A stretch of DNA of 64,000 nt. It comes from Ignavibacteriaceae bacterium (GTDB lineage Bacteria; Bacteroidota; Ignavibacteria; Ignavibacteriales; Ignavibacteriaceae). Shown one piece after another: positions 51,262 through 59,858 of the stretch (its first letter is position 1; each line of letters opens with the position of its first letter). Below the pieces are notes generated by a model. That model did no database searches. It was not told where the DNA came from and saw nothing but the letters and a program-made list of their open reading frames with translations. The stretch spans positions 1 through 64,000 of the forward strand of contig JABWCL010000023.1 of the NCBI GenBank assembly GCA_013360295.1. Direction: 5' to 3'. The translations under genes and the position numbers were made by a program.

Positions 51262-51581
51262 TTGTTGCTCTGATCTTTTTTTTCCATTTCTTCTTTGTTC
51301 TGATTGTTTTCACGAAAAGATGGCAGTCGGAATCGGCGGGTTCCGGGTTTATAAATATGGCGCTTATCGGAATTCTGTTTTCAGTCGGATGGTCAATCAG
51401 TTCCATGATAGCCAAAGCAATACTCCCCCCTAAGGGATTTGGAATTTATTTCGACCGGGATGCATTCAGTTTAACCTTACTGACTATCGGCGAGCTGATA
51501 TTCTACAGAATTTATTACGATGATATCTTTACTGGACGCGATAAGGGAAAACAATCACAGCAAATTGCTCCCGCTGAATAA
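51258..51581 (+). CDS. Small membrane protein of unknown function
   Basis: This 107-residue protein has three hydrophobic segments (about residues 2-18, 33-53 and 67-83) and a polar tail. No family is recognised. The ATG overlaps the stop of the preceding gene (ATGA). Its last 53 bases overlap the 3' end of the opposing tonB gene. It closes the plus-strand run; no terminator is visible, which is expected if the overlap is real. Confidence 0.55.
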   Translation: MIVALIFFFHFFFVLIVFTKRWQSESAGSGFINMALIGILFSVGWSISSMIAKAILPPKGFGIYFDRDAFSLTLLTIGELIFYRIYYDDIFTGRDKGKQSQQIAPAE

Positions 51582-52176
51582 AGCCCTGAGGCAATGGTTC
51601 GAATCTCCATCTTCTTAGTGAATTCATTGCTGAATTTTCCAATCGTGTATCAGCTTTAGTAAGGGGAATAATTGTCCCAACGGAACCATCTGGCAATATT
51701 GAAAAACGAAGCCGTATATCGATGTTTTTACTTACTCCGCCGGGGTATTCCGGAAGATTGTAATTATAAATCTTTCTTCTCCCCCCTCCTCCCCAGTCAA
51801 TATCATAGCCTCCGCCGCCTCCGCCACCAATACCATAGCCATCGCCAAGTCCTTCGCCCGTTCCGTCACTCGGGTTTTCTCTGGATGAACTCTTATTTTT
51901 ACTCGCTTGTTCGGTTGCATCAGCAGAGCTGACTTTTTCGGTCAGTTCCGGATTAACAGTTTCCTCACTTTTTTCCGCAGAGTTCTCTCCACCTCCGGGT
52001 TCGGGATAAAACGGGTTAAAGTCACCTCCTCCGGCACCCTCGCCAAATCCAAAACCGATCTCGATATACTCCGCCTGGGGATTATTTGCCGATGGAGTGT
52101 AATAATACAGCGCAAGGAAAACAAGCGCGTGTAACAGAATGGATATGGTATAAAAATGATTTATCCTAAGACTCAA
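51529..52176 (-). CDS. TonB-family energy transducer
   Basis: This 215-residue protein has an N-terminal membrane helix (about residues 10-26) and a long acidic and glycine-rich periplasmic linker. The C-terminal TonB domain contains YPGGVSKNIDIRLRFSILPDG near residue 145 and ENSAMNSLRRWRFEPLPQG near residue 182. It would couple inner-membrane proton motive force to an outer-membrane partner; ExbB and ExbD are not in this window. TTG start. It is last in a minus-strand module with a SPOR protein and a barrel. Confidence 0.85.
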   Translation of the reverse strand: MSLRINHFYTISILLHALVFLALYYYTPSANNPQAEYIEIGFGFGEGAGGGDFNPFYPEPGGGENSAEKSEETVNPELTEKVSSADATEQASKNKSSSRENPSDGTGEGLGDGYGIGGGGGGGYDIDWGGGGRRKIYNYNLPEYPGGVSKNIDIRLRFSILPDGSVGTIIPLTKADTRLENSAMNSLRRWRFEPLPQGFIQREQFAVIVFPYRVQ

Positions 52177-52188
52177 GTTAGTACCGGT

Positions 52189-53994
52189 TTATTTTATCGT
52201 CTTTGAAAAATCACTGGCTTCTTCGAACGTGTTGAACGTACCTATCCTTACGCGGTACCAAGTTCCTCTGTTGGGGATATCCGCTTCCATAACATAAGCC
52301 GCAATTCCTTTTTCTTTTAATCTCGCGACCTCATTATCAGCTTCAGATTTTCTTTTGGTGGCAAATAATTGTATAACATAAAAATTACCTTCTCGGAATA
52401 TATTCCCTTTTACTAAGTAAGATGAATTTTGTTCCGTTGAAACACTCTTCTTTTCAGCAACAGGCGGAGTATTTTTTATCTCCGAACGCATTTCAGGTTT
52501 TTCTTTATTCACATCCAAAGCAATAGGCTGAACTTCCTTTGTTGTCTGCTCAGGCGGTTCGGACTCGGAGACAGACGGAGGAGGTAATTTAGATCCATCC
52601 TCTTCTTTCTCCACGCTTCCTGCACCGGGATATGGGTAACTCACAGGGATATCATAATCTCTTTCAATAACTGTCGGAACGACCTTAATCTCATAAACAA
52701 TTTCTTTTTCTTTTGTTTCAAAATAAGGTTTGAGAAAGGAGGGTATTCCGTAATTATTGTAATATACAAACGATGCGACAGCGACGCAAAGAATGGCGAA
52801 TAAGACGTAACCGGTTTTCCCGCTTTTCTGTACTTCTCCGCCGGAGTAGTATTTCTTCTTATCCGCGCTCTTGAAAGGAGATGTTAAGAGATCAACTCCG
52901 CGTCTTTTACGCGGCAACTCCTGCACCTGGGCGTTAACGGTAAAAGCTGCCCCTTCAAGACCAGAATTATCTTCTTCACCCTCTTCGGGGAATAAACCTG
53001 ATTGTTCAGAAGAATCTTCCGGACTATCTTCTTCTGCCTTTTTTTCCGTTGGCGGAGTGATAAGCGTCGCCGTTAATACATTTTGGGCTAATGATTTTTT
53101 AAAAATCATATCGAAGTTTTGTGCATCCTCTGAGACAGGAATCTCATTCGTATTGGCAAAACCTGAAGGAGTATCTTCTTCTGTGAGTTCGCTCAGGTCG
53201 ATTTTAAGTTCTTTGGTCTGCTGAGACGGAGAGTCAGTAACTTTCCAGGCACTGAATTCTTCCTCAACCAGATCTTCGAAAGTAATATTATCCTCGACTA
53301 GTTTATCCTGCGCTACGTGGAGTACATCATTTGGTTCTTCAAAATTATCCGGACTTGCCTCCCAGAATGATCTGTCATTTTCGATCGCACTGAGTATTCG
53401 GTTTTCATCCAATTCCTTGGTCCAGTCATCACCAAATTTCCAGTTATTTACAGAAGTACCCTCTTCCTCCTTCACATCCGGTATAATATTGGGAGTTTGA
53501 ATTTCAAGTTTGGTATTTCTGCGCGAAATCTCGATCACTTTATTATCACGCAGAAATTCACCGTTCCCCAGAATTTCTTCAGTTTTAAAATCAAATAATT
53601 TCTCCAGTTCTTCAGGCTGGTGTAGAAGTGACTTTTCACTGAACTGAACAGGATTGAGCGGTATAACCGGTTTGCTGATACTGAGGCTCAGGAGAGAATC
53701 AATTTCATCTTTTTTTCTGAACGGAGTTTCTGGAACTCCGAATACAAGGACATCCCTGGTGAAGTCATTCTTCTCCGAAAATAATATGGCTTTAAATCCC
53801 TTTTGGACGGAAGGTTGAACTTTACCCTTAAGAGTCTGTAGCTTAAAATATCCCAGATTTTTTAGGTAAAATACATCGTTCTCGATGAGAACCTCCGTAA
53901 GCTTCCTCAGGAATACCTCGGCAAAATCTTTAAGATTTAACTCCGGTACTCCGACGTTACTGGCAAGGCTTCTTATGACGTCAATTCTTAACAT
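52189..53994 (-). CDS. HU-like domain / transmembrane / SPOR domain protein
   Basis: Residues 1-80 look like the HU/IHF-like domain found at the N-terminus of some Bacteroidota SPOR proteins (FAEVFLRKLTEVLIENDVFY, then LGYFKLQTLKGK). A long acidic, low-complexity cytoplasmic region follows, then one membrane helix (about 399-416, GYVLFAILCVAVASFVYY) and a Pro/Glu-rich periplasmic stretch. A C-terminal SPOR domain (about 525-601, FYVIQLFATKRKSEADNEV) ends the protein. SPOR domains bind denuded peptidoglycan at division sites. The protein would connect the cytoplasm to the wall. Confidence 0.82.
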   Translation of the reverse strand: MLRIDVIRSLASNVGVPELNLKDFAEVFLRKLTEVLIENDVFYLKNLGYFKLQTLKGKVQPSVQKGFKAILFSEKNDFTRDVLVFGVPETPFRKKDEIDSLLSLSISKPVIPLNPVQFSEKSLLHQPEELEKLFDFKTEEILGNGEFLRDNKVIEISRRNTKLEIQTPNIIPDVKEEEGTSVNNWKFGDDWTKELDENRILSAIENDRSFWEASPDNFEEPNDVLHVAQDKLVEDNITFEDLVEEEFSAWKVTDSPSQQTKELKIDLSELTEEDTPSGFANTNEIPVSEDAQNFDMIFKKSLAQNVLTATLITPPTEKKAEEDSPEDSSEQSGLFPEEGEEDNSGLEGAAFTVNAQVQELPRKRRGVDLLTSPFKSADKKKYYSGGEVQKSGKTGYVLFAILCVAVASFVYYNNYGIPSFLKPYFETKEKEIVYEIKVVPTVIERDYDIPVSYPYPGAGSVEKEEDGSKLPPPSVSESEPPEQTTKEVQPIALDVNKEKPEMRSEIKNTPPVAEKKSVSTEQNSSYLVKGNIFREGNFYVIQLFATKRKSEADNEVARLKEKGIAAYVMEADIPNRGTWYRVRIGTFNTFEEASDFSKTIK

Positions 53995-54006
53995 TGTTAA
54001 GAGCGA

Positions 54007-55596
54007 TTACCAATTAAATGTAAATCCGGCTTCAACACTTCTTCCTGGCTCCAGGTAGTTGTAAAAATAATAATATTTTTGATCTAATAAGTTAGATACA
54101 TTTATGTTTAAAGTAAAGATATCTGAAATGGAATAATTTGCTCCCAGAGAAAGGTTATAAGACGGATCAATTTTGCTTAGATCTCTGGTTGTATAAAAAT
54201 AAGGCGCCTTATACAAGAGAGCAATTGAAGTCTCAAAACCGCTCAAGGGGTTGATTGTGTAACTGATTGTCGAACTAAACGGATATACCCCCCTCACTTC
54301 GCCGCCGGACACAGTCTGGAACGAGTTCACTTCAACATCAGTATGAATCGATCCAAGAGAGCCCAAATGAAGTGAAAAATCAAAACTCACCTTCTTCCCC
54401 GTTATATCATCCCTTCCGGGAAAGAATGCAGAGGTGCTGTCATTATAATCAATAAACACATATCCCTTTTCCTCTATATCGCTAAGAGTAAGAAGTGCGC
54501 ATAACGTGCGGGGCAACTCATACTTCAGGAACACTGAAATGTTCTTCTCGGTCAGTGAAGTAAGATCAGCAGGAAGAAAAAGATTCATGTACTTATTGTT
54601 CCGGATGAGTTGAGCATTATTACGGAAATTGTGCTGACTGGAGTAATCCGCTCCTATTTCAAACTCTTTGAAGACCCTGAACCGGATTGAGGATAAAGGA
54701 GATATTTTTGTATCCGTCGAGTTCCTACTGAGGATCGCTCCTCCGGAAACAGATAACAGATCGCTAGCCATTCCGGTGAGACTGCCTTTTAGCAATAGAA
54801 ACTGATTCTGGATAATACTCGAAGTAATGGTCTCTTTATTTACGTAAAACTCACCATCTACGTCCATCCTAAAATTAGCAAAATGAAGCCCAAACTGCGA
54901 ATTCAGCAAAGTAACATTACTGTTAAAGCTTTCCTCTTTTATAATAGTGCTTCTGTTCTCCGCCGAAACACTTAAAAAGAAAGGAGAATGCTTCCCTTTC
55001 TGAAATTTTACGTCAATATCATAGAACTTTAAGTTTCTTTCTGTCAGTGGATTTGAATAGCCGTAAAGCTTGTACTTGCTATAGTGAGTGTTTAATCCTG
55101 AAGACATGAAAATATCGGAAAAGAAACCTTTTGCATCATACGGATAGTAATTCAACCTGGCAAATGTACCGGTAAAGAATTGTTCACTGTTCTCAATAAA
55201 AGCTTTCGAATTGTATCCGTTAACACCCGCGTTAGCAGTGAGTTCCCTGGTTATGTACATCAGGTCAGCATTCAAAGTTGGAGTCTTAATATTTCCAAAT
55301 CCTAATTCCACTTCACCCTTAAACTGAGGATTAAAACTATAAACGGGCAATTCAAGCTCTTTGAATGCAGGCTTGAACTCCCTCCGGGAAAACTTGATCG
55401 GCTTGAAGACCGGATTGAAATTGCTTGCAGGTAAGACTGGTGTAAGTTGAATATCAAGCTTTTGAACTACGGGAAGTTCGACAACATCTTTGCCTGTTAT
55501 GACAAAAGTCGGGAGCTCAACACCGCCTGGGCGTTCACCTTCCTGCGCGAATAAAAAATGAGTAGCCAATAAAATAAATGATACAATATATTTCAT
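54007..55596 (-). CDS. Outer-membrane beta-barrel with a TonB-box-like start and no visible plug
   Basis: The 529-residue protein has a signal peptide and then LPTFVITGKDVVELP (about residues 28-42), which resembles the TonB box and strand that open TonB-dependent receptors. A plug domain would be expected next; instead there are about 50 residues of linker, and from about residue 95 amphipathic strands up to the final VEAGFTFNW. The last strand has the receptor-like pattern NVSNLLDQKYYYFYNYLEPGR. It is shorter than normal receptors. The ATG overlaps the stop of the upstream TPR gene. Confidence 0.72.
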   Translation of the reverse strand: MKYIVSFILLATHFLFAQEGERPGGVELPTFVITGKDVVELPVVQKLDIQLTPVLPASNFNPVFKPIKFSRREFKPAFKELELPVYSFNPQFKGEVELGFGNIKTPTLNADLMYITRELTANAGVNGYNSKAFIENSEQFFTGTFARLNYYPYDAKGFFSDIFMSSGLNTHYSKYKLYGYSNPLTERNLKFYDIDVKFQKGKHSPFFLSVSAENRSTIIKEESFNSNVTLLNSQFGLHFANFRMDVDGEFYVNKETITSSIIQNQFLLLKGSLTGMASDLLSVSGGAILSRNSTDTKISPLSSIRFRVFKEFEIGADYSSQHNFRNNAQLIRNNKYMNLFLPADLTSLTEKNISVFLKYELPRTLCALLTLSDIEEKGYVFIDYNDSTSAFFPGRDDITGKKVSFDFSLHLGSLGSIHTDVEVNSFQTVSGGEVRGVYPFSSTISYTINPLSGFETSIALLYKAPYFYTTRDLSKIDPSYNLSLGANYSISDIFTLNINVSNLLDQKYYYFYNYLEPGRSVEAGFTFNW

Positions 55597-58553
55597 CTTA
55601 TACGCTTCAACCTGTTCTTTGCTTCATTCGTATAATCATCCGTGCCTTTCCTGTTCACCAAGACCTGATACATTTCCTTTGCCTTCTTAGTATCTTTTTT
55701 CTGTTCGTAGATACTGCCTAAAGCCAGATATGATTGCTTCACCCACTCCTCATAACGGAAGAAAATATTTATCACACGGACAAATGCGGTGATTGCATCC
55801 TCTGTTTTCTTCTGAACCAGGAAAGTGTTCCCAAGAATAAACTGGGCTTCAGCACCAATATCATCATTCCTGGTATTTGCCAACTTTTGTAGCAATCGAA
55901 TCGCGTTCTCAAAACGTCCGGATTGAAACTCGATACGTCCAAGTTCAAGTTTTGACTTTTCCGAGAAAACGTTATCTTCAAAACTTTGTGTTATTTCTTC
56001 AAAAAGGTCATAAGCACCGCTCATATCACCTATTCTCTGCAAAAGTTTAGCCTTTAGGAACATTAATTCTGAAAGTCGCTTAGAAGTCTCGTTACTCTTG
56101 ATTATCCGGTTAAAAAGGCTGATCGCTTTATCGCTGCTCCCTTCAGATTCATAAATGGAAGCCAGGTCTATCACGGCTGAAATGGTAAAGTCTGAACCGG
56201 GATACCTGCTTATAATGAGATTAAAGTTCTGTTTTGCCTCTTCAAATTCTCCCAGATTCTGGCTGCTCTTACCTGCCCAATAATATGCTTCAGGGACCAG
56301 TTTACTTCCGGAATAGATATTGATGAAGTCATAGTAGCTTGCTCTCGCATTAGCGTAATCCCTATTGCTGTAGTACAGCTCACCTTTTTTAATAAATAAC
56401 TGATCAGAAAAACCTGATTGTTTATTTCTTAAAGCGTAATCATTAAGTATCTTTGCAGCACTCTCGATATCCCCAAGCGCTACGTAGCAATATTGCAAAC
56501 CATTTACGGCATCGAACCAATTCGGGGAATTACGATAATCTCTTATCACTTTTTCATATGCAGAGATCGCCTCCGTGAAGTTCCCGGCATTATAATATGA
56601 GTCTCCGATAGAATAATAGGCTGTTGGAACGAGCTTTGATTTGGGGACACGGTATATCAATTCTCGATACTTTTCTATCGCGCGCTCATAATTCCTCTCC
56701 TGAAAATAGATCCAGCCGGATAAGTAATAAGCGTTTTCGAGGTACTGTGATCTCGAATAGCTGCGAATAAGGGTATTCAGCTGTGCCTGAGCGCGGTCCA
56801 TCCTGTTAAGTTTGTAAAATACCTGCGCCGTCTGGTATAAAATGTAATCCTGGTTCTTAGAATCCTTTGAACTTAGGAGAATGTCATAATTCCGTAAAGC
56901 TTCTTCGTAACCCTTATTCGAGAATAATGCATCAGCAAGTCTCAGCCTGACATCCGTACCGCGGGAATCTTTAGGAAACATTTTTAAGAAATCCTGAAAA
57001 ACATACGAGGCATTGTTATAATCCCTCATATTGAAGAGACAGTAAGCCTTGGAGTAGAGAGCGGTTGAATAGATGGTCTCATCATCAGAACTAACCCTGC
57101 CGTAATACCTGTGGGCGACCAGATAATTCTCTTTCTTGAAATAGTTTTCGGCGAGGTAAAAATTTGTTAATCCGCTTTCAAAGTTCGGAGCCAAAGAATC
57201 GATAACTGAGAGAATAGCAATTGACTGATCGTATTGTTTCAGATGATGCAGGGAGATACCATAGCCAAGTAAAGCCTTAAATACTGAAAAACGCTCCTTT
57301 ATATTATTTCGTGCGTTATCATAATATTTCAGGGCAATCTGGTAATTGCGATTACTGAACTCCATATCACCAAGAAGAAGATTCGTGTGGGCAATCAATT
57401 CCTGGTTCCTGGTCTGATTAAGAAGATTCAGGAGATACTTCGTGGCATTTTCATTCTGCTTAAGCTCAAAATATATTTTACCGATCTGGAAAAGGACGCC
57501 GTCAATATAGGAGGAGGACGGAAACCTTTTTTGAAAATCTTCAAAAATTTTAATCGCTTCCCTCAAGTTTCCGAGGTTTCTGATTGACTCTCCTTTCCAA
57601 TAAGTGGACAGGAGCGCAATACTATCGCTTCCCTGCGCAAGAAGGCTGAATTCCTTAAAAGCCTGAGTGTAGTCTTTTTTCTCAAGATGAGTCCAGGCAA
57701 GTGCATAACGAACGTCCCGGATAAACTCAAAGTCCGGATAAGTTTCGACTATCTCCTCAAAATAACGTGCGGCACTTTCATATTCACGGGAGTGGAAATA
57801 AGAATCTCCCAGAAAAAATAAATACTCTGCTTTTTTTCCGAGTTCGATGTTTTTCAGGGAAGGATTCGATAGCTCAATGATACTTCTTTCATACTCGTTG
57901 ATCTTATAGAAATTGAATCCGAGCCTGATCTGGGCGTCCGCGTAAACTTCACTGTCCGAATAATAGGATAGTATTTTCTCGTAACTGTCAATAGCCTTCT
58001 GGTATTCTGATACTTCTTCAAAACAAATACCAAGAGCAAAATATGATTTATCTATAACCGGATTAGTAGTTTTATTCTGAATGGCAGCCTGATACCATTC
58101 AATTGCCGATCTATAGTTTTTTTCAATCCTGTATGATTCTGCGATGTTGTGATGAATTTCTCCAAGAATATAATATGAAGGGTACTGTGCAACTAACTGA
58201 CCAAAAATTTCTCTGCTCTCAGAGTAGTTGCCAAGAAAAAAGTCACAGAATGCAAGCCTGTATAATGCCTCAGGCCTGTACAAAGAGAATGTGGAATTGT
58301 ATAAAAATAGCTGGTAATACTTTTTGGCAAAGGAGTAATTCTTTTCCTGGTAAAACCCTGATGCAAGAGCGAAGTCCGAATTATTCCTGCTGAGTTGTGA
58401 TATGTTCTTATTTTCGGTCTTCTTAAAGAGATATGAATAGTCAGCGGTAGTTGGAATCTTTAAGTGCCCCGCCGAGGGGAGTAGCTGAGCATAGGTTACC
58501 TGAAGGAATATTCCTGCACTTAAAAAGAATGTTATGATTTTGCAATTATTCAT
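55593..58553 (-). CDS. Large exported TPR-repeat protein
   Basis: The mature protein is nearly all tetratricopeptide repeats: more than twenty helix pairs such as YRSAIEWYQAAIQ, YERAIEKYREL and FTEAISAYEKVI, with the BamD/YbgF-like pattern YPxSxx between them. Length is 986 residues from the ATG at 58553, which gives a clean signal peptide; a TTG nine codons earlier lacks one. It probably acts as a periplasmic scaffold for its neighbours, the barrel, SPOR protein and TonB. That role is inference from the operon. Confidence 0.82.
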   Translation of the reverse strand: MNNCKIITFFLSAGIFLQVTYAQLLPSAGHLKIPTTADYSYLFKKTENKNISQLSRNNSDFALASGFYQEKNYSFAKKYYQLFLYNSTFSLYRPEALYRLAFCDFFLGNYSESREIFGQLVAQYPSYYILGEIHHNIAESYRIEKNYRSAIEWYQAAIQNKTTNPVIDKSYFALGICFEEVSEYQKAIDSYEKILSYYSDSEVYADAQIRLGFNFYKINEYERSIIELSNPSLKNIELGKKAEYLFFLGDSYFHSREYESAARYFEEIVETYPDFEFIRDVRYALAWTHLEKKDYTQAFKEFSLLAQGSDSIALLSTYWKGESIRNLGNLREAIKIFEDFQKRFPSSSYIDGVLFQIGKIYFELKQNENATKYLLNLLNQTRNQELIAHTNLLLGDMEFSNRNYQIALKYYDNARNNIKERFSVFKALLGYGISLHHLKQYDQSIAILSVIDSLAPNFESGLTNFYLAENYFKKENYLVAHRYYGRVSSDDETIYSTALYSKAYCLFNMRDYNNASYVFQDFLKMFPKDSRGTDVRLRLADALFSNKGYEEALRNYDILLSSKDSKNQDYILYQTAQVFYKLNRMDRAQAQLNTLIRSYSRSQYLENAYYLSGWIYFQERNYERAIEKYRELIYRVPKSKLVPTAYYSIGDSYYNAGNFTEAISAYEKVIRDYRNSPNWFDAVNGLQYCYVALGDIESAAKILNDYALRNKQSGFSDQLFIKKGELYYSNRDYANARASYYDFINIYSGSKLVPEAYYWAGKSSQNLGEFEEAKQNFNLIISRYPGSDFTISAVIDLASIYESEGSSDKAISLFNRIIKSNETSKRLSELMFLKAKLLQRIGDMSGAYDLFEEITQSFEDNVFSEKSKLELGRIEFQSGRFENAIRLLQKLANTRNDDIGAEAQFILGNTFLVQKKTEDAITAFVRVINIFFRYEEWVKQSYLALGSIYEQKKDTKKAKEMYQVLVNRKGTDDYTNEAKNRLKRIR

Positions 58554-58565
58554 AATACTATAATA

Positions 58566-58594
58566 TGAAAAAGCCCTCATTAACCGAGGGCTTT
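58566..58594 (-). terminator. Hairpin with T run between two TPR genes
   Basis: A perfect 9-bp stem AAAGCCCTC/GAGGGCTTT with a 7-base loop is followed by T residues on the minus strand. It lies 4 bases past the upstream TPR gene stop and 17 bases before the next ATG, so it may lower rather than abolish downstream expression. Confidence 0.75.
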
Positions 58595-58597
58595 ACT

Positions 58598-59347
58598 TTA
58601 CTTAATCTTTTGCAACTCGGCTTCAGCCAGTTTTTGATAATCATTGTCGGTTACAGCCACCTCAAGAAACTGACGTGCTTTGTCATTTTCACCTTTTACC
58701 CGGTAAGCCATTCCAAGATAATAATTGGGTCCACCGGGAGTTATATTAGATTTTACCTTAAGAGCAAGTTCAGAATTAGAAATTACCGCGTCCCAGTTCT
58801 CAACTTTACTGTACGCTCTCGCTAATGAGAGATAAACCAGATCAAGCTTAAAATATTCCAAACCGTTATTAAGAAGAACAACAGCCGTATCGACATGATT
58901 ATCATTAATAAACTCATTAGCTTGTTTATTGTAAGCCCTGGCTAGATATTCCTTGACCTTATCGATAAGGCCCTGGTTTGAAGAATACTCAAGAACTTTA
59001 GTGAAGTTGCTGATAGCTTCATTCATATTATTTAGGGCAAAATAAGTGCCGCCCAAAGCATTATAAGCGAGGTCAAACTTCTGATTACTTTTTATGGACT
59101 CATTGAAAGATGAGATGGCCTCATCATTTCTTTCGAGTTTCCTGAGACAAATCCCTTTCTGGAAATGTATCTTGTAATCCTGAGAGGTTATTAAGGCAGA
59201 ATCATAGTAGGAAATTGCCTTAAGCAGGTCATTTGCTTTAAAGTTTTCATTACCGGCTTTGTAGTAGGCCTGGGCCTGGGGGTCCATGCTCTGGGCTGCT
59301 ACAGGCAGGAATGAAAAAATAAAGATAGCAACAAAGAAATTTTTCAT
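58598..59347 (-). CDS. Exported TPR-repeat protein
   Basis: This 249-residue protein has a signal peptide (MKNFFVAIFIFSFLPVAAQ) and five or six tetratricopeptide pairs: AYYKAGNENFKANDLLKAIS, LRKLERNDEAISSFNESI and AYNALGGTYFALNNMNEAIS. It is first in the envelope module and lies 31 bases after tRNA-Leu. It probably works with the large TPR protein encoded next, though the strong hairpin between them suggests different amounts of the two. ATG start. Confidence 0.78.
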   Translation of the reverse strand: MKNFFVAIFIFSFLPVAAQSMDPQAQAYYKAGNENFKANDLLKAISYYDSALITSQDYKIHFQKGICLRKLERNDEAISSFNESIKSNQKFDLAYNALGGTYFALNNMNEAISNFTKVLEYSSNQGLIDKVKEYLARAYNKQANEFINDNHVDTAVVLLNNGLEYFKLDLVYLSLARAYSKVENWDAVISNSELALKVKSNITPGGPNYYLGMAYRVKGENDKARQFLEVAVTDNDYQKLAEAELQKIK

Positions 59348-59378
59348 TTATTGAGAACTCCAATTAAGGTATGATTAG

Positions 59379-59460
59379 TGCGGAAGATGGGACTTGAACC
59401 CACACGAGTCTCCTCACACGCCCCTCAAACGTGCGCGTCTACCAGTTTCGCCACTTCCGC
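59379..59460 (-). tRNA. tRNA-Leu (GAG)
   Basis: This 82-base class II tRNA on the minus strand has acceptor stem GCGGAAG/CTTCCGC and anticodon loop TTGAGGG (anticodon GAG) on a stem with one G-T pair. It has a long variable arm (GAGGAGACTC) and the T loop GTTCAAG. CCA is not encoded. Confidence 0.95.
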
Positions 59461-59521: not shown

Positions 59522-59821
59522 TTATTCGGTAATTATCTGTGTATGTAACCCAATCTCCTGCAAAACAGACGAAACCTCAAGACAGGATTTCATCTCACCG
59601 GAGAAAACTATCGCCTTCCCTTTTACGTGCACCTCAAAAGTGAGGCCGCGCGCAGTCTCGAAATTGCATTTTGTGGCCTTGATTATCTGATTAATAACTT
59701 CGTCAAAGGTATGCCAGTCATCATTGTAAAGGACTACCCTGCAGGCAAGAGTTACCTGAAGATCTTCCTCATATTCAGGCCTGTGTTCAGGTTTTTGAAT
59801 CGCTAAATTCCTTATCTCCAT
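59522..59821 (-). CDS. clpS: ATP-dependent Clp protease adaptor ClpS
   Basis: This 99-residue adaptor delivers N-degron substrates to ClpAP. The core motif VVLYNDDWHTFDEVI near residue 28 and the HVKGKAIVFSGE segment near residue 66, followed by the Glu of the substrate pocket, are intact. The family's usual Pro-rich start is replaced by PEHRPEYEE. I start at the ATG at 59821; an in-frame TTG lies two codons upstream. It is divergent from etfB. Confidence 0.93.
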   Translation of the reverse strand: MEIRNLAIQKPEHRPEYEEDLQVTLACRVVLYNDDWHTFDEVINQIIKATKCNFETARGLTFEVHVKGKAIVFSGEMKSCLEVSSVLQEIGLHTQIITE

Positions 59822-59858
59822 ACCCAAAATATACTAAAAAAATAGCATCTTGTTTATT

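Follow-up and report, generated by a model that had tools for sequence, protein, structure and literature searches.

Introduction

The described systems closest to the locus examined here are Tol-Pal, the Ton system with its TonB-dependent transporters (TBDTs), and the division proteins that carry a SPOR domain. The Agl-Glt gliding machinery of Myxococcus is said to combine a TolQR-type motor with TonB-like, tetratricopeptide repeat (TPR) and outer-membrane proteins, and fusions of HU-CCDC81 and SPOR domains in Bacteroidetes were reportedly described by Burroughs et al. in 2017. A further comparison is offered by PorE, a single lipoprotein with the make-up of a CpoB-TolB-CP-Pal fusion, which has been proposed as the outer membrane-wall tether that fills the functional gap of Tol-Pal in Bacteroidetes (PMC12204202). 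Here we characterize a module of envelope genes at 51529-59347 of the window, by which we mean the whole 64-kb stretch of Ignavibacteriaceae DNA analyzed, the first part of a 74.6-kb contig (C34) in a genome of 4.46 Mb. Judged from its sequences and structure models, the module appears to link an energy-driven motor of the inner membrane to an unplugged outer-membrane barrel and to the cell wall. We tentatively read it as a machine of the Ton/Tol superfamily driven by the proton-motive force (PMF), which would draw the outer membrane to the wall as Tol-Pal does.

The individual parts of the module are known, including SPOR, HU-CCDC81, TBDT barrels and TolQR/ExbBD-TonB, and their combination is seemingly undescribed. 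No description of the gene set was found in the literature searched, in which subscription journals were covered incompletely, and the same literature did not place HU-CCDC81/SPOR fusions in an operon context such as the present one. In the available part of the PorE study, no mention of this gene set was found (PMC12204202).

Conserved gene content and order

The initial annotation described five envelope genes on a single strand with short gaps or overlaps, and this composition was confirmed by the coordinates of the open reading frames (ORFs) and by domain matches (Table 1). All five ORFs lie on the minus strand in the order TPR-small, TPR-large, barrel, HU/SPOR and TonB, and successive frames are spaced by +17, -4, +12 and +12 bases. 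We compared this arrangement with three sets of loci. The first consisted of neighbourhoods of barrel matches that were ORF-called and labelled with profiles, 60 in number including the window after one locus (L111) was dropped; the second contained 80 loci from the genome collection, 15 of which were cut by a contig end; and the third contained 35 loci from distant families. The first two sets partly cover the same contigs and are therefore not independent, and all gene-order counts are lower bounds because some genes were missed, or given a wrong start, by the simple ORF caller. Those relatives that could be named were mostly Ignavibacteria, including Ignavibacteriaceae and Melioribacteraceae, and the phylum sampled is probably Bacteroidota as GTDB broadly defines it.

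We found that the TPR-large gene stands directly 5' of the barrel gene in every locus of the first two sets (60/60 and 80/80), with an overlap of 4 bases in 52/60 and 75/80, and this adjacency is more than chance. A HU/SPOR gene was encountered no more than two genes after the barrel in 57/60 and 78/80 loci, and a TonB gene within six genes in 58/60 and 65/80. An ExbB-like gene was present in 43/60 and 62/80 clusters and an ExbD-like gene in 39/60 and 54/80; this motor pair, common in relatives, is not visible from the window alone. The conserved unit is TPR-large, barrel, HU/SPOR and TonB, usually with an ExbB-ExbD pair ahead of TonB. The order of these genes is kept within the order, the class and many further families of the phylum; among the 35 distant-family loci, a TPR gene was adjacent in 28, a SPOR profile was matched in 18, TonB was present in 20 and ExbB in 14.

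Whether the genes remain neighbours in relatives was the test proposed in the initial annotation, and we determined that they adjoin across much of the phylum. Four of its five genes hold as core members. TPR-small does not hold as a constant member, being present ahead of the unit in just 27/60 and 42/80 loci and separated from the rest by a hairpin, and it was rejected from the core; the motor pair was missing from the proposed set.

These counts also bear on the distinctly improbable explanation that the locus is an ordinary Ton system, in which TonB (with ExbBD) would power general nutrient receptors, and the TPR, barrel and SPOR genes would be co-transcribed housekeeping neighbours that are functionally unrelated. 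Operon neighbours can indeed be unrelated, and FolC follows downstream in 6/35 of the distant loci. However, the TPR-barrel pair persists down to 13-20% barrel identity, TonB stays with this pair in many clusters even where ExbBD has been lost, and the barrel itself carries a tail of the kind that a TonB protein might contact. We conclude from this conserved arrangement that the module is a real and widespread system, and one that is putatively PMF-driven and trans-envelope.

Table 1. Features of the module in the window, with the main matches or observations for each.
Feature	Position	Strand	Match or observation
TPR-small (249 aa), an optional neighbour that is probably outside the operon	58598..59347	-	TPR_2 6.5e-18
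Terminator-like hairpin between TPR-small and TPR-large	58570..58594	-	10-pair stem
Large periplasmic TPR protein, core gene, 995 aa as listed	55593..58580	-	TPR_6 9.7e-67; signal peptide and many TPR units
Predicted plugless 22-strand barrel, TBDT relative, core gene	54007..55596	-	AlphaFold, Foldseek, conserved tail motif
HU-like domain, one transmembrane helix and C-terminal SPOR domain, core gene	52189..53994	-	SPOR 2.2e-15
TonB-like transducer, core gene, TTG start	51529..52176	-	TonB_C 2.3e-05

The outer-membrane barrel

The window barrel had no match in Pfam, and a Pfam plug domain was found neither in this protein nor in 30 members of its family, of which 5/30 weakly matched the TonB receptor barrel (best 8.6e-06). 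An AlphaFold model, calculated from an alignment of 68 rows taken from the window and the genome-collection loci, reached a mean pLDDT of 85.2 and showed 22 strands, which span residues 91-528; pLDDT was below 50 for residues 17-85. Its nearest solved structures in Foldseek were OprC (2.8e-17) and BtuB (3.0e-17), and the comparison with FhuA gave a Z of 23.9 and an rmsd of 3.0 over 430 aligned residues. The protein is predicted to have the fold of a TBDT without its plug, and the barrel lacking a plug that the initial annotation had proposed is borne out as a predicted 22-strand barrel with no plug match.

The most conserved segment of the barrel family, E-L-P-x-F-V-I-T-G, is located immediately after the signal peptide and reads ELPTFVITGK at residues 27-36 of the window protein. 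A loose form of this tail motif was present in 137/140 pooled loci and the exact ELPDFVITG in 94/140, and the pattern ELP[DE]F[VI]ITG was encountered in 123 stretches of the genome collection, 112 of which are relatives. In distant families, related tails as judged by eye include LPEFVITG and EIEIVKER...LP. TonB boxes include sequences such as VVVTG, and the tail resembles them, by eye, closely enough to be called putatively TonB-box-like. It was also noted that a near-invariant Gln follows the likely signal-cleavage site, which fits the Bacteroidetes Q-rule (PMC10653852).

A dedicated transport machine is the main rival reading of such a barrel, and one that we consider unlikely. In this case, a large lipid, glycan or protein would cross the outer membrane through the open 22-strand barrel, the TPR protein would be the adaptor in the periplasm, TonB would gate or energize passage and SPOR would do no more than site the machine; the exopolysaccharide exporters that pair a TPR protein with a barrel, AlgK/AlgE, provide the analogy. 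The transporter fold, the overlap between the TPR and barrel genes and the retained TonB-box-like tail are all consistent with transport, yet this reading leaves the SPOR and HU parts unexplained, and same-strand neighbours beyond the core vary between loci in maps that are partly annotated.

The TonB-like transducer and its motor

The window transducer consists of an N-terminal transmembrane (TM) helix with an S-x3-H motif (SISILLH), a Gly-rich linker and a TonB_C domain. The motif was found in 114/123 pooled transducer homologs. Where ExbB/ExbD genes are in the cluster, the TM His was present in 102 and absent in 8 of 110 loci, and where they are not, it was present in 23 and absent in 10 of 33; this tally is approximate, as some of the pooled loci are duplicates and others, such as L104 and L228, have mis-started ORFs. 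The ten loci with neither ExbBD nor the TM His are L103, L105, L106, L110, L192, L195, L196, L198, L202 and L204. They belong to five families of the same class (f6, f7, f9, f11 and f43), from which the motor pair and the TM His seem both to have disappeared, and their transducers, once driven by a motor, may have become passive tethers.

Where a motor was compared, it scored nearer to TolQ/TolR than to ExbB/ExbD. In L220, the motor proteins matched TolQ at 7.8e-31 versus ExbB at 8.3e-20, and TolR at 1.9e-13 versus ExbD at 6.2e-12, and the same order was observed in L108, with the scores of these two members all under the equivalog cut-offs. The clusters of the window, of the congeneric genome G001 and of some further relatives have no ExbB/ExbD pair. 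The genome of the window contains three MotA_ExbB genes, for which the ExbB profile gave 222, 207 and 206 bits, compared with mostly ~300-340 bits for intact operon copies in the class and 225-292 bits for operon copies of far families. Since none of its own ExbB proteins scores like the operon copies of the class, a relocated motor pair is disfavored and loss of the pair is the more probable course, with the values of the far-family copies keeping this short of proof. With the pair gone from this locus, the transducer would borrow a general Ton motor, and because the window TonB keeps Ser-x3-His it could use another ExbBD.

The same genome holds a second cluster (L217, G000:C48:191000-210000) that encodes a TPR protein of 1047 aa, a TM protein of 477 aa, ExbB and ExbD, followed by a 281-aa ORF that is binding-lipoprotein-like by eye; there was no barrel-profile match in this cluster.

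The HU/SPOR and TPR proteins

The HU/SPOR protein has its HU-like domain at residues ~1-90, its TM helix at ~392-415 and its SPOR domain at ~525-600. The AlphaFold model had a mean pLDDT of 59.7, with values >90 only in residues 1-50 and ~531-600 and with disordered linkers between the domains. Its best Foldseek match was the SPOR domain of RlpA with denuded glycan (E 0.043), no HU protein appeared in the list for the whole model, and the FtsN/DedD models matched weakly, below cut-off. Of the fusion named in the initial annotation, the SPOR part is matched in the window protein itself, and the HU part is putative there: Bac_DNA_binding was sub-threshold in this protein (E 0.086), HU was over the Pfam cut-off in the orthologs L220 and L226, and HU-CCDC81 was over cut-off in L181, L188 and L189.

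SPOR-type proteins follow the barrel in many distant families. Eight distant SPOR-like proteins were scanned, of which five were over the SPOR cut-off (L181, L188, L175, L191 and L172), two were below it (L183 and L189) and one had no match (L170). Further proteins with a TM helix and a SPOR-like region but without a profile match were seen by eye in distant loci. The genome of the window carries two other SPOR stretches.

TPR-large was over the NCBIfam cut-offs for YbgF (305.6 bits) and BamD (176.5 bits), names that are generic to TPR repeats. Its score against PorW/SprE of the type 9 secretion system (T9SS) was 168.6 bits, under the cut-off of 250, and an identity with PorW/SprE was rejected on this count; the three matches look generic. 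The listed ATG at 58580 sits inside the terminator-like hairpin (58594-58570), whose 10 pairs form the longest stem of the scan. This position makes an internal ATG, at 58553, the more probable start of TPR-large, and translation from there would give a protein of 986 aa with the signal peptide MNNCKIITFFLSAGIFLQVTYAQ, near the usual family length (~990 aa). Terminator-like sites numbered 15 in the region, compared with 7.9 (sd 3.5) in shuffled sequences.

Distribution across the phylum

We assessed the spread of the barrel in a phylum sample of 198 genomes, comprising 43 of family f21 and 155 of other families (non-f21). Family f21 is taken to be Chlorobiaceae because of the gene cluster in L111, a locus of G149 that proved spurious for the module, with a plugged receptor and a cluster that is Mg-chelatase-like by eye. 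A profile built from distant barrels (A7) matched 168/198 genomes at E <= 1e-10, 24 of them in f21; the f21 matches listed were without exception partial and lay in frames of 236-892 aa, with a best value of 9.5e-16. At E <= 1.5e-22, a threshold picked after the gap between f21 and the other genomes was seen, the barrel was present in 142/155 non-f21 and 0/43 f21 genomes, with G063 (1.5e-18) and G073 (1.2e-11) counted as lacking it. The raw tally of 359/395 genomes with a barrel match was rejected as a count of modules because plugged receptors, such as that of L111, match the C-terminal strands of the barrel profile.

The initial annotation had asked whether tol-pal is lost from the same genomes. 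At E < 1e-150, a full-length TolB query taken from f21 matched every genome of that family (43/43) and none of the others (0/155). Weaker matches to propeller repeats were seen in 14/155 non-f21 genomes (best 6.9e-36), and a full-length ortholog of TolB was not found outside f21 in this sample. The genome of the window had no TolB_N and no match to the full-length query at E <= 1e-20. In f21 (loci L299-L302 and L305-L310), the ORF next to TolB in L299 was judged by eye to be Pal-like. TolB_N was over cut-off in 5/118 genomes, four of f21 and G132. This split between barrel and TolB fits the pattern to be expected if Tol-Pal had been replaced, and for outer membrane-wall coupling and division in a phylum largely without TolB, the module is a concrete candidate.

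The marker SprA of the T9SS was run as a control and gave nearly the same split (154/155 non-f21, 0/43 f21), so that the distribution does not separate a Tol-Pal replacement from a link to T9SS. It is improbable, in our estimate, that the module is an accessory of the T9SS/gliding apparatus, which likewise relies on a PMF motor and on TPR proteins in the periplasm. Apart from the SprA split, this idea draws on the sub-cut-off PorW/SprE score, which is of the generic TPR kind. Two genomes of one genus (G060 and G387, g70) carry the barrel with no SprA_N match, and the cluster of G060 (L170) is complete, running TPR-barrel-HU/SPOR-ExbB-ExbD-TonB-FolC. Conversely, 13/155 non-f21 genomes have SprA and no barrel at the threshold. 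SprA was missing, by elimination, in at least six non-f21 genomes of the 395-genome sample, G060 and G387 among them, and in the four further ones (G265, G272, G379 and G301) the barrel matches were only weak and undecided.

Surroundings of the module

A tRNA-Leu(gag) at 59378-59460 and clpS at 59522-59827 are located just upstream of the module on the same strand. At the other end, a convergent gene of ~100 aa runs 53 bases into the 3' end of tonB (window 51529-51581), and in 90/122 pooled loci, duplicates included (L052-L110, L219-L298), this overlap is exactly 29 or 26 bases. Beyond the convergent gene, the window has genes resembling DUF4199 (below cut-off), DUF2085 and NHL repeats, with matches that range from weak to clear, and relatives show similar gene lengths and strands there. 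Direct repeats in the locus were limited to short, diverged copies.

Proposed mechanism

For the PMF-driven machine that we tentatively favor, we infer each interaction and function from the parts, their order, the predicted fold and the motifs. The motor would turn or pull the TonB-like transducer, whose C-terminal domain would grip the barrel tail and pull on it, and the TPR superhelix would scaffold or close the mouth of the barrel. SPOR would tether the assembly to denuded glycan, chiefly where cells divide, and the HU-like domain would form the cytoplasmic end, where it may dimerize or act as a sensor of cytoplasm or nucleoid. Together, these actions would draw the outer membrane towards the wall and the inner membrane in a phylum largely lacking TolB. 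If so, the barrel, a TBDT that shed its plug and retained a TonB-box-like tail, would be a rare example of a transporter that has become a mechanical or gated component.

Several observations weigh against this reading. No TolB and no Pal-like lipoprotein or OmpA domain was found among the ten window proteins scanned with Pfam, a negative that covers the locus, the rest of the genome not having been searched for OmpA/Pal. The TonB_C match of the transducer is just over the Pfam cut-off, its NCBIfam TonB score is 20.4 against a cut-off of 27.1 bits, and the NCBIfam models gave no match to the TonB of L220 at 1e-5. In several distant clusters that do bear ExbBD, the transducer lacks the TM His. 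The TBDT ancestry of the barrel points to transport, and the PorW/SprE score of TPR-large and the SprA control point to T9SS. The complementarity of barrel and TolB involves a single clade and therefore counts as one event; moreover, TolB_N was weak in G045 and also matched the control Bacteroides ihuae, so that, with G132, some TolB-like proteins do occur in the phylum outside f21. Finally, a motA gene, PG_0782, is reported to be dispensable in Porphyromonas gingivalis (PMC10653852), and tonB1 can be deleted in Riemerella anatipestifer (PMC4446302); either gene may be a counterpart of one at this locus.

The Tol-Pal-like trans-envelope system suggested by the initial annotation is partly supported: it is strengthened by the conserved neighbours and by the lack of full-length TolB outside f21 in the sample, and weakened by a complementarity confined to one clade and a SprA split of nearly the same shape. 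A tie to division or outer-membrane constriction is putative. Our best guess, by analogy, remains a role between outer membrane and wall like that of Tol-Pal. A bolder and doubtful version of the proposal is that the module would be the Bacteroidota's own replacement for Tol-Pal, a proton-driven device that pulls on a plugless nutrient-receptor barrel put to new use and in this way constricts the outer membrane of dividing cells, with SPOR as the anchor in the septal wall and the HU-like domain reporting to the cytoplasm or chromosome; some lineages, those without the motor pair and TM His, would then have made it a passive tether.

Comparison with known systems

Both PorE and the module are proposals for the Tol-Pal gap, and they are set apart by the description of PorE as one fused lipoprotein. 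The Agl-Glt machinery is likened to the module by its list of parts. Compared with Tol-Pal, the module shares a PMF motor, present in many relatives and nearer to TolQ/TolR by sub-cut-off scores in the two members compared, a transducer in the inner membrane, a periplasmic TPR protein and a predicted contact with the wall; it differs in having an outer-membrane barrel and a HU/SPOR protein, and the TolA model scored 18.4 bits, far under its cut-off of 59.45. With the Ton system and its transporters (FhuA, BtuB and OprC), it has in common a TonB_C transducer, the S-x3-H motif, a predicted 22-strand barrel and a putatively TonB-box-like tail, whereas its barrel is without a plug match and without a known substrate and is co-encoded with TPR and SPOR partners. 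The SPOR division proteins FtsN, DedD and RlpA share with the HU/SPOR protein one TM helix, a long disordered linker and a C-terminal SPOR domain; the module protein differs from them by its N-terminal HU-like domain and by adjoining TonB and outer-membrane barrel genes. The HU-CCDC81/SPOR fusions (PF18174/PF18175) are matched by distant members at the same position of the module.

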